This document shows positions 33,870 to 37,865 of a stretch of DNA of 56,203 nt, piece by piece. The DNA is from Fuscovulum blasticum DSM 2131 (GTDB lineage: Bacteria > Pseudomonadota > Alphaproteobacteria > Rhodobacterales > Rhodobacteraceae): positions 1 to 56,203 of the forward strand of contig NZ_PZKE01000016.1 in NCBI RefSeq assembly GCF_003034965.1. The letters are read 5' to 3'. The translations under genes and the position numbers were made by a program. Below the pieces are notes generated by a model that was not told the DNA's origin, did no database searches, and saw only the letters and a list, made by a program, of their open reading frames with translations. Position 1 is the first letter of the stretch, and each line of letters begins with the position of its first letter.

Positions 33870-34427
33870 ATGTCAAACCGCTCCGACATTCATGACCGCC
33901 TGGCCTCTTCCCTGCGCGAAGCCCGCCGCGCCCGCGGGCTGAGCCTTGATGCCGTGGCCAAGCTGTCGGGCGTGTCGCGCAGCATGGTCAGCCAGATCGA
34001 ACGGGGCGAATCCTCGCCCACGGTGGCCACGCTGTGGAACCTGACCCAGGCCTTGCAGGTGGATTTCGCCGGGTTGCTGGAAGGCAAGCCACGGCCGGGG
34101 ATCGAGATCACCCGCGCCGATGCGGCCCCGGTGATCGACCGGGGCGGCGTGCGCATCCGCATCCTGTCGCCGCCCGAGGCCGTGGGCGAAAACGAGGTCT
34201 ATGATCTTGAATTCAGCCCCGGCGCGCGGCTGCTGTCCGAGCCCCATTCGCCGGGCTGCCGAGAACATCTGACGGTGATCGACGGTCAGCTTCGGGTGCG
34301 TTCAGGCGACGAGGACGAACGGCTGGGGGCCGGCGACGTGGCCCGCTATGCCGCGGACCGCGACCATGAGATCGGCGCCGAAGGGTCCGCCCCGGCGCGC
34401 GCCATTCTGATCGTTCAGGGAAGCTGA
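33870..34427 (+). CDS. XRE family regulator with C-terminal cupin domain
   Basis: 185 aa. The N-terminal helix-turn-helix reads SLREARRARGLSLDAVAKLS, GVSRSMVSQIERGESSPTVA, and LWNLTQALQVDFAGLL. The C-terminal cupin (residues about 105-180) has HSPGCREHLTVIDGQLRV and GAGDVARYAADRDHEI, a small-ligand sensing barrel. Such proteins often regulate amino acid catabolism. It lies directly upstream of and parallel to kbl-tdh, and two near-identical palindromes in the 138-base gap make control of threonine breakdown likely. The ligand is unknown. Confidence 0.9.
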   Translation: MSNRSDIHDRLASSLREARRARGLSLDAVAKLSGVSRSMVSQIERGESSPTVATLWNLTQALQVDFAGLLEGKPRPGIEITRADAAPVIDRGGVRIRILSPPEAVGENEVYDLEFSPGARLLSEPHSPGCREHLTVIDGQLRVRSGDEDERLGAGDVARYAADRDHEIGAEGSAPARAILIVQGS

Positions 34428-34483
34428 AGCCGGAGGCCGGACCGCCGGCGCCGAAGGTGATTTGCGGAAGGAAGACCCCGGAA

Positions 34484-34497
34484 TCCGTCTTGACGGA
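34484..34497. promoter_or_regulatory. Palindromic operator candidate, upstream site
   Basis: TCCGTC-TT-GACGGA is a perfect 6+2+6 inverted repeat located just upstream of the likely -35 box of kbl. It matches the second site at 34541 in TCCGTY-N2-RACGGA form. The centres are 57 bases apart. Confidence 0.6.
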
Positions 34498-34512
34498 CAC
34501 ATATCCGCCATA

Positions 34513-34541
34513 TTGACAGATCCGGCAGCGATGCGGTAATT
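34513..34541 (+). promoter_or_regulatory. Likely promoter of kbl-tdh
   Basis: TTGACA (34513-34518) is a perfect -35 box; 17 bases later GTAATT (34536-34541) is an acceptable -10. It is bracketed by two matching palindromes, the second of which overlaps the -10 edge and start region, so repression by the upstream XRE-cupin protein is plausible. Confidence 0.5.
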
Positions 34542-34554
34542 CCGTTAAAACGGA
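34541..34554. promoter_or_regulatory. Palindromic operator candidate, downstream site
   Basis: TCCGTT-AA-AACGGA, a perfect 6+2+6 inverted repeat, sits between the -10 box and the GGAGGAA ribosome site of kbl. It shares eight identical outer-half bases per symmetric unit with the site at 34484. A dimer bound here would block transcription start. Confidence 0.6.
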
Positions 34555-34565
34555 GGAAATCTTTC

Positions 34566-35762
34566 ATGACGGATACGGGTGGGGCGGCGTTTCTGGGGCA
34601 CCTGGCCGGGGTGCTTGACGGCATCCGGGGCGAAGGTCTGTGGAAGTCCGAGCGGGCGATCGAAGGGCCGCAGGGTGCCTGGGTCACCATGGACGGCCGG
34701 CGGATGCTGAACCTTTGCGCCAACAACTATCTGGGTCTTGCCGATGACCCGCGGCTGGTGGCGGCGGCCAAGGCGGCAATGGACGAGGCGGGCTATGGCA
34801 TGGCCTCGGTCCGGTTCATCTGCGGCACGCAGGAAATGCACCGCAAGCTGGAAACCCGGCTGGCCGGGTTTCTGGGCATGGAGGATTCGATCCTGTTCGC
34901 CGCCTGTTTCGATGCCAATGGCGCGGTGTTCGAACCGCTGCTTGGCCCCGAGGATGCGGTGGTGTCCGACAGCCTGAACCACGCCAGCATCATCGACGGC
35001 ATCCGCCTGTCGAAGGCGCGTCGCTATCGTTACGCCAATGGCGACATGTCCGACCTTGAGGCGCAGCTCAAGGCGGCGCGGGCCGAAGGGGCGCGGCATA
35101 TCCTTGTGGCGACCGACGGCGTGTTCTCGATGGACGGCTATTTCGCGCCGCTGGCCGAGGTGCGGCGGCTGGCCGATGCCTATGGCGCGCTGGTGATGGT
35201 GGACGACTGCCACGCCACCGGCTTTGTCGGGGCGAAGGGTTCGGGCACGCCGTCGCGCGCCGGGGTTGCGGTGGACATCCTGACCGGCACGCTGGGCAAG
35301 GCGCTTGGCGGGGCTTTGGGCGGCTATGTCGCCGGGCCGAAGGTGGTGATCGACCTGCTGCGCCAGCGCGGGCGGCCGTACCTGTTCTCGAACGCGCTGC
35401 CGCCGGCCGTGGTGGGCGCCGGGCTGGCCGCGCTGGACATCATCGAGGCGGCCGATGACCTGCGCGCGCAGCTTTTCGAGAACGCCGCCTATTGGCGGGC
35501 CGGCCTGACGGCCGCCGGGTTCCGGCTGCTGCCGGGCGAACACCCCATCGTGCCGGTCATGCTGGGCGATGCGGTGCTGGCGCAGCGGATGGCGGCGGCC
35601 CTGGCCGAGCGGGGGGTGCATGTCGCGGGCTTCTTCTTCCCCGTGGTGCCCAAGGGGCAGGCGCGCATCCGCACGCAGATGAATGCGCGGTTGACGCGAG
35701 GGGATCTGGATTTCGCGCTGTCGGCCTTTGCCGAAGCGGGCCGTGACGTGGGGGTGATCTGA
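34566..35762 (+). CDS. kbl: Glycine C-acetyltransferase (2-amino-3-ketobutyrate CoA ligase)
   Basis: 398 aa, family-typical. PLP enzyme that splits 2-amino-3-ketobutyrate with CoA into glycine and acetyl-CoA. [46 protein letters not shown] and [18 protein letters not shown] (with the PLP lysine) are all present. GGAGGAA precedes the ATG. Its last base is the first base of the tdh ATG (TGATG), so the two are coupled. Together with Tdh it degrades threonine to glycine. Confidence 0.96.
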
Positions 35763-36787
35763 TGCGCTGTCTGGTAAAGGCGAAGGCGGAGCCGGGGCTT
35801 TGGGCCGAAGAGCGGCCGGTGCCTGCGATAGGTGCAGACGACGTGCTGATAAAGGTACGCAAGACAGGCATATGTGGTACCGACGTTCACATCTGGAACT
35901 GGGACGACTGGGCACAGAAAACCGTGCCGGTCGGGCTGGTGACGGGCCACGAATTCGCGGGCGAGATCGTGGAACTGGGCCGCAACGTGACCGACCTTGC
36001 CATCGGCCAGCGGTGCAGTGGCGAGGGGCATCTGATCGGCACCCACAGCCGGCAGTCGCGGTCGGGGCGGTTCCATCTGGACCCGGAAACCCGTGGCATC
36101 GGCGTGAACGAACCCGGGGCCTTTGCCGAATACCTGCGGCTGCCCGCCTTCAACGTGGTGCCGCTGCCCGACACGATTCCCGACGAGATCGGGGCGATCC
36201 TCGATCCGCTGGGCAATGCAGTTCATACCGCGCTGTCCTTCGATCTGGTGGGCGAGGACGTGCTGATCACCGGCGCGGGGCCGATCGGCATCATGGCGGG
36301 GGCCGTGGCGCGGCATGTGGGGGCGCGGCATGTGGTCATTACCGACGTGAACCCGGACCGGCTGCGGCTGGCGGCCGAGGTGGCCGACATCGTGCCGGTC
36401 AACGTGGCGACGGAAGACCTGCGCGAGGTGATGGGCCGGCTGAAACTGGTGCAGGGCTTCGACGTGGGGATGGAGATGTCGGGCAGCCCGGCCGCGTTCG
36501 ACCAGATGGTCGAGGCCATGGTGATGGGGGGCCGCATCGCGATGCTGGGCATCCCGCCGGGCCGGTCGGCGGTGGACTGGAGCCGGATCGTGTTCAAGGC
36601 GATCACGATCAAGGGCGTCTATGGCCGCGAGATCTTTGAAACCTGGTACAAGATGATTGCCATGCTGGAAAACGGGCTGGACATCGGCAAGGTCATTACC
36701 CACCGCTTCCCCGCCGACAGGTTCGAAGAGGGCTTCGCCGCCATGCGGTCGGGCACCAGCGGCAAGGTGGTGCTGGACTGGGGCTGA
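35762..36787 (+). CDS. tdh: L-threonine 3-dehydrogenase lacking structural-zinc cysteines
   Basis: 341 aa, same length as the E. coli enzyme. It oxidises threonine to 2-amino-3-ketobutyrate with NAD. The catalytic zinc ligands Cys38 (GICGTD) and His63-Glu64 (TGHEF) are intact, as are the Rossmann GAGPIGIMA and the Tdh-specific [14 protein letters not shown]. In the structural-zinc lobe, the positions of Cys93, 96, 99 and 107 of E. coli are Gly93, Ser96, Ser99 and Asp107 here ([18 protein letters not shown]). The enzyme may therefore have no structural zinc. Codons ATA, GTA, TGT and GTT, rare in this window, cluster at residues 23-42. Confidence 0.93.
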
Positions 36788-36798
36788 CGCCGCCCCCC

Positions 36799-36828
36799 GG
36801 CAGGGCGCGGCCTGTGCAGCGCCCTGCC
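36799..36828. terminator. Hairpin between convergent tdh and DUF3883 gene
   Basis: GGCAGGGCGC (36799-36808) pairs perfectly with GCGCCCTGCC (36819-36828) around a ten-base loop, in the 48 bases between two converging genes. There is no T-run on either side, so it may be a Rho-assisted or bidirectional end rather than a classical terminator. Confidence 0.5.
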
Positions 36829-36835
36829 CCGCCGT

Positions 36836-37672
36836 TCAGCCGAAATCGGCGCGGAAACTGGTGGCGGTCAGCGCCACATGGGCCGAAAGCGGCGGGCGCA
36901 GTTCGAAGGCGCGGGGGCTGCGGGCGAAGTTGAACACCCGCACCAGCCGCCAGTCGGCGCGGCGTTCGTCGGCCACGCGCAATTCGTTGGCCGAAATGTG
37001 GAAGGGCGTCCGGTCCCAGGCGCCGTTGGTGGTTTTCACCTCGATCAGCCGCTCGGCCCCTTCGGGGGTGAAACTGGCAATGTCATAGCCTGCCCCATCG
37101 CCGCGTTCCTGCGAGACCCAGACGATGCGGCGGGCCAGATCGTGCCGGCCCGCCCGGCGCAGCGTTTCGCGTTCATGCGCCAGCACCCGTTCTTCACCGG
37201 CCCGGCCAAGGCTGCGGTTGCGGTCATCGCGCGCCGCCACATCAAAGCGCAGGGCGATGGCGCGCAGCTTTTCGGCAAAGGCCGGGGCGGGTTCGTTGCG
37301 CAGGGTTGGCGGCGTGTCGAACGGCAGCGGGGCCACTTCGGAAACGCCTGCCGCCGCCGTGCCGGTTGCTGGTGCGGCAAAGTCCGGGTGGCGTTCCAGC
37401 CAGTGGTTCACCGGGCCGGCCAGCGCGGCCTGAAAGTTCTGCGCCGGCAGGTAGCCGGCAATGCGCGGGGCACCCAGCCCCATCAGCACGGCGCTGATGT
37501 TCTGGTGCTTGAATTCGATGGCGGCTTCGCTGCGCCCGGCCAGAAGCGGCTGCAAGGCGCGGCGGTGGGCGGCCTTGCTGTAGGGCCGGTCGGCAAGTTC
37601 AGCCGCCAGCATCGCGAAGTAATCCGCGACGATGGCTTCGTTTTCCAAGTCTGACCATGCCTCTTGCGCCAT
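36836..37672 (-). CDS. DUF3883 domain protein, putative PD-(D/E)xK-type nuclease
   Basis: 278 aa. Two parts: an N-terminal conserved region (DLENEAIVADYFAMLAAEL, then EFKHQNISAVLMGLGAPRIAGY in parts) and a C-terminal DUF3883 domain with GYDIASFTPEGAERLIEVKT. The Asp ... Glu-x-Lys spacing in that segment matches the restriction-endonuclease-like fold, so DNA cleavage or binding is plausible. DUF3883 domains often occur in DNA-defence proteins, but no helicase, methyltransferase or other partner gene is adjacent. The ATG at 37672 has a weak ribosome site. Function is inferred from fold only. Confidence 0.75.
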   Translation of the reverse strand: MAQEAWSDLENEAIVADYFAMLAAELADRPYSKAAHRRALQPLLAGRSEAAIEFKHQNISAVLMGLGAPRIAGYLPAQNFQAALAGPVNHWLERHPDFAAPATGTAAAGVSEVAPLPFDTPPTLRNEPAPAFAEKLRAIALRFDVAARDDRNRSLGRAGEERVLAHERETLRRAGRHDLARRIVWVSQERGDGAGYDIASFTPEGAERLIEVKTTNGAWDRTPFHISANELRVADERRADWRLVRVFNFARSPRAFELRPPLSAHVALTATSFRADFG

Positions 37673-37788
37673 GGCGGCACAGTGCCAGGCCCGGCCACGC
37701 CTGTCACCCCTGCCGAATGTCCGAGGCCGCAGCATAACGCGGCGGCGGCCCCGCAGGGCGCAACATGGCTGGACCTGTCTTGCAAGAT

Positions 37789-37865
37789 TGGTCGGGGCGA
37801 GAAGATTCGAACTTCCGACCTACGGTACCCAAAACCGTCGCGCTACCAGACTGCGCTACGCCCCG
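37789..37865 (-). tRNA. tRNA-Pro (anticodon TGG)
   Basis: 77 bases on the minus strand including encoded CCA. Acceptor CGGGGCG pairs with CGCCCCG; the D arm GCGCAGTCTGGTAGCGC is standard; the anticodon arm is ACGGT-TTTGGGT-ACCGT, giving anticodon TGG; the T arm contains AGTTCGAATCT. Confidence 0.97.

Follow-up and report, generated by a model that had tools for sequence, protein, structure and literature searches.

We report here a short patch within tdh, the L-threonine 3-dehydrogenase gene of Fuscovulum blasticum, in which synonymous codons that are rare in this genome are gathered together. The patch was analysed in a window of 56,203 nucleotides, the whole stretch of contig NZ_PZKE01000016.1 of strain DSM 2131 under study (Table 1). 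The rare-codon cluster in tdh is real and non-random, and by comparison of the available genes it appears to be specific to one lineage among the sequences compared. Our preferred reading, to which we give about even credence, is that the patch arose in place, through a lineage-specific series of synonymous substitutions in an ordinary, vertically inherited tdh. The main rival to in-place change is conversion from an unsampled near relative.

Table 1. Coordinates of the codon patch in tdh and of associated features, given as positions in the window.
Feature	Position	Strand	Basis
Rare/uniform synonymous codon patch, tdh codons 21-53	35822..35920	+	Uniform-vs-genome maximal segment, shuffle tests, likelihood models
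Patch core: ATA at codons 23, 30 and 37, with GTA32 and ACA35	35828..35872	+	
tdh, L-threonine 3-dehydrogenase, 341 aa	35762..36787	+	NCBIfam NF003808 equivalog, 529.7 bits vs cut-off 380
kbl, glycine C-acetyltransferase	34566..35762	+	NCBIfam NF005394 and TIGR01822, both above cut-off
TGT codon of Cys38	35873..35875	+	Read from sequence

The gene itself is an ordinary enzyme gene of a kbl-tdh operon and was probably inherited vertically. The NF003808 match passes its curated cut-off and spans residues 1-340, that is, the full length, and with the older model TIGR00692 the score (434.4) falls under the cut-off of 458.35. The stop codon of kbl and the start codon of tdh share one base (TGATG). 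Catalytic-zinc motifs are found in the tdh frame as CGTDVH at residues 38-43 and GHEF at 62-65; we take Cys38 to be the first catalytic-zinc ligand, as in E. coli Tdh, and presume that Cys38 and the GHE motif downstream make up the catalytic zinc site. Adjoining tdh is a gene on the minus strand (36836-37735) that encodes a C-terminal NOV_C domain (PF13020), and just upstream of the latter lies a tRNA-Pro(tgg) gene (about 37789-37865, minus strand). Close tdh genes have a patchy distribution, being found in six of 13 genomes of the genus, F. blasticum included (E up to 1e-120).

A preliminary description made from the window had listed uncommon codons at about codons 23-42 of tdh. That list is correct on reading the sequence, in which codons 23-42 are ATA GGT GCA GAC GAC GTG CTG ATA AAG GTA CGC AAG ACA GGC ATA TGT GGT ACC GAC GTT. 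The segment delimited by the likelihood of uniform versus genome codon usage, codons 21-53, is a little longer; here ATA encodes three of the four Ile residues, and the other codons of note are GTA, ACA, GCA (twice), GGT (twice), TGT, CCT, GTT and AAA. Asp is always GAC in the patch (codons 26, 27, 41, 48 and 49), despite GAT making up 37% of Asp codons.

To what extent these codons are rare depends on the codon. In a table compiled from 388 genes besides tdh, called in 456 kb or about 13% of the genome, the shares within the respective amino-acid families are 0.8% for ATA, 1.1% for GTA, 3.7% for ACA, 4.2% for CCT, 4.8% for GCA, 7.4% for GGT, 9.4% for GTT and 15.1% for TGT. Thus ATA and GTA are truly rare, as the preliminary description had it, whereas TGT and GTT, which it also called uncommon, are merely moderately so. 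A larger sample of 1109 genes was drawn from 1.26 Mb including the studied stretch, about 35% of the 3.59 Mb genome, and in the 1108 genes other than tdh, which was left out of the table, ATA represents 0.83% of Ile codons. The concern that genome codon tables might show the codons not to be rare is therefore unfounded for the core codons. Because of the patch, the gene caller placed the tdh start at 35924, and the full tdh was added manually in later counts.

The clustering of these codons exceeds chance. Among 20,000 synonymous shuffles of the gene, and among 20,000 resamplings at genome frequencies, none matched the 22-codon clustering observed. With a shuffle z of 7.6, tdh ranks first of 389 genes (the next has 5.7), it also leads the 389 in absolute 22-codon score if the starts of the other genes are trimmed, and it is alone among 1109 genes in carrying three ATA within 15 codons. 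When starts were extended upstream, 10 of the 388 other genes beat tdh on the 22-codon score; the maxima of all ten begin no later than codon 60 of the lengthened frames, and we take them for over-extended starts. The uniform-vs-genome log-likelihood ratio of the tdh segment is 16.6, and ten other trimmed genes score higher; in eight of these the segment is longer than that of tdh, and in two it is shorter (26 and 30 codons). With extended starts at least 12 genes lie above tdh. Some of the trimmed genes that outscore tdh are probably foreign genes or gene-caller errors. Elsewhere, a gene on the minus strand of L185 (5141-6091, equivalent to G000:C3:245141-246091) shows near-uniform codon use over 310 of its 316 codons, has three ATA, and looks recently acquired.

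A rare-codon cluster is conventionally recognised by a negative %MinMax window. By this type of measure, in 18-codon windows, the patch is positive throughout, with a minimum of 8.5, and so does not rank as a cluster; 141 of 1108 genes are equal or lower. The anomaly thus lies in a handful of very rare codons within a gene whose codon bias is otherwise strong.

We then compared the patch with its counterparts in relatives. From 142 loci, 13 without the tdh motif in reach were removed, and the remaining 129 gave 120 that were distinct, long enough and stop-free, F. blasticum included, hence 119 relatives. Across these 119 the protein segment is nearly unchanged and is mostly written in ordinary GC-rich codons. 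The GC3 of codons 21-44 minus that of the rest of tdh is -0.35 in F. blasticum, the lowest of the 120; the 119 relatives average 0.007 (sd 0.073). Lesser dips occur at the same place in L015 (-0.26), L132 (-0.23), L111 (-0.20) and L047 (-0.16), which may be accidental in genes of lower GC3 or may reflect some recurrent cause. One or two ATA are present in codons 21-44 in seven of the 119 relatives; the tdh of L047 (G207) has two there and none in its counted remainder. Among the 114 relatives at 75% identity or more, codons used by fewer than 5% of those keeping the residue account for 6 of 28 testable codons in the patch and 3 of 270 elsewhere. Conservation of the same codons across the family, which would have told against the preliminary description, was thus not found among the 119 relatives, and because the dip in F. 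blasticum exceeds that of any of them the patch is not a conserved pause site. The 5' end of the gene stands out in a further respect. Codons 1-33 hold 16 bases present in fewer than 15% of the 119 relatives, for which the mean is 6.5, and since seven of the 16 lie off third positions (nine lie at them) this end of tdh is unusual beyond synonymous sites. The excess is partly common to Rhodobacter sp. Har01, whose gene also begins ATG CGC TGT.

The sister Har01 (L063) was particularly informative as to origin. It is the nearest relative over the first 56 residues (0.911 identity) and is level with L038 over residues 57-339 (260 of 283 each); being closest at the start and tied for closest after it, Har01 indicates no break in relationship along tdh. 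Twelve positions in residues 21-60 vary within the family, and at 11 of them, all but position 49, F. blasticum agrees with Har01. Seven hand-picked positions of these 12, a pick that leaves out position 49 where the two differ, are all matched by Har01 alone of the 119, the next best relative matching five. The two proteins differ in the patch at residues 22, 25 and 49 only. In nucleotides, 19 of 99 differ over the patch, a number reached by 28 of the 254 same-length windows clear of it.

The direction of change sets the patch apart. Synonymous differences from Har01 run from G/C to A/T in 11 of 14 cases in codons 21-53, as opposed to 23 of the 80 found elsewhere (Fisher p 0.0006), and with six other relatives all 11 patch changes are placed on the F. 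blasticum branch. The synonymous changes resolved to that branch number 11 in the 33 patch codons versus 12 in the other 306 (p 8e-7). This count is biased, in that 3 of the 14 patch differences and 49 of the 80 outside it stay unresolved and rare codons are the easiest to resolve; the patch boundaries, too, were picked after inspection of the data. Of four models for codons 21-53, uniform choice has the best log likelihood (-32.9), followed by a shift to A at third positions (A3, -38.1), a shift to A or T (AT3, -44.0) and genome usage (-50.1). Simple AT enrichment was therefore rejected, as it fits worse than uniform choice and Asp stays GAC.

Taken as in-place change, the history of the patch may have been as follows. 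After the split from a Har01-like sister, some 11 synonymous changes from G/C- to A/T-ending codons would have gathered in codons 21-53, with the constraint on the protein largely kept. Codon choice there would then have been freed from the strong preference of the genome, as if that preference had been turned off locally. From the run of substitutions and its uniform codons we infer relaxed, or weakly reversed, codon selection, the most likely consequence of which would be small, namely slightly slower translation, or slightly less structure, over the part of the message that lies about 60-160 nt in. A difficulty for in-place origin is that independent drift does not readily yield a dense, nearly all-synonymous run amid little-changed surroundings.

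Such a dense run between quiet flanks is, indeed, the classical mark of a conversion tract. A possible, if distinctly tentative, explanation is a homologous tract of about 100-160 bp whose donor, an unsampled tdh, encoded a near-identical protein but had weaker codon bias. The changes are clustered and mostly synonymous, codon usage is normal on both sides of the patch, and the bases of A22 and A25 occur in 4 and 5 of the 119 relatives, respectively. However, the 11 family-variable residues are shared with a sister whose own codons at the patch are GC-rich. Moreover, no relative of the 119 has more than five of the 13 minority bases, the one with five being a low-GC3 gene (L123), and the best other match in the family (L034) is 85% identical with none of the 13. 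Searches for a donor covered collections that are samples, mostly with one genome per species. None was found in the family (198 genomes, 95 with a match); there was no match at E up to 1e-18 in 397 other genomes of the phylum, the three-ATA pattern occurred in none of 384 other genomes of the class, plasmids and phages gave no match above 90% identity over most of the query, and viral contigs gave none to one exact degenerate pattern. A second copy in the F. blasticum genome was rejected as a source, the further matches there being just three, of 14-27 bases and with E above 2, and repeats were rejected as a cause, as only short matches exist and do not explain the patch. Recombination of the segment from a divergent donor is disfavoured by the agreement with Har01, the unexceptional total divergence and the absence of a donor from the searched samples, and the segment is not kin to a lineage other than that of its flanks.

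Another explanation is selection in this lineage for rare codons, which by slowing ribosomes would allow proper formation of the N-terminal catalytic domain or the zinc site. The position of the patch, just before and over Cys38, would suit this, as would a choice of codons that is uniform and not AT-shifted, with the rarest Ile codon used three times and the rarest Val codon once. Nevertheless we consider it unlikely, as the dip is not conserved in the 119 relatives despite their nearly unchanged protein segment, %MinMax is positive and not unusual, and genes for the tRNAs decoding GTA (tac) and ACA (tgt) exist. These tRNA-Val and tRNA-Thr genes, together with tRNA-Gly(tcc), were found on scanning 30 of the 43 tRNA loci. 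Given how many genes match or exceed tdh on %MinMax, a strong translational pause is doubtful, and with conservation absent as well, an important role in pausing or zinc insertion seems unlikely from the sequences. It is rather improbable, too, that the patch is a selected 'codon-neutral' island over the catalytic-zinc segment, gained by in-place substitution and tuning translation in F. blasticum only. Were the patch selected, nature would here have provided a clean example of synonymous recoding of an active-site segment in one lineage, with the close sister Har01 as a control.

That the patch acts as a nucleic-acid signal, be it an internal or antisense promoter, an RNA structure or a protein-binding site, is very unlikely. 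It is the AT-richest part of the scanned stretch (0.50-0.53 GC per 60-base window), and only 6 of 500 genome-typical recodings fold as weakly or more weakly, but synonymous versions matched for GC do not fold differently (z -0.52), and folding is as weak at 26 of 127 loci of relatives, duplicates kept. We found no promoter of the sigma-70-like type in 35600-36100 and no terminator. A search of 34400-37000 gave no match to Rfam at E up to 1, and codons 21-55 contain no 8- or 10-base palindrome. A sequence artefact or deliberate recoding is the least credible reading of all: random recoding would yield uniform codon choice over a bounded segment, but the reference assembly is identical to the studied stretch, albeit not an independent test of it, and we know of no sequencing error pattern that produces clustered, mostly synonymous errors.

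To conclude, the patch changes little in the protein, gives no sign of a new element and is a small curiosity of one lineage. Its main lesson is that even a conspicuous codon patch that is real may lack conservation and probably matter little. In housekeeping genes, tracts of mosaicism or gene conversion are characterised by clustered substitutions with clean edges. The tdh patch resembles them in both respects but differs in keeping the amino-acid signature of its sister lineage and the overall divergence, and in having no donor in the samples. It is likewise comparable to the synonymous rare-codon clusters of Chaney et al. (2017, PMC5438181), in being a local run of genome-rare codons inside a coding sequence. 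The clusters that paper emphasises keep their position across homologs, and such positional conservation is taken there as a sign of function, whereas the rarity in tdh does not recur at the same position, and is unmatched in size, in 119 relatives. Compared with other kbl-tdh operons, finally, the F. blasticum gene is like them a full-length NF003808 equivalog adjoining kbl, and it departs from them in its codon choice at codons 21-53 and in residues A22 and A25.
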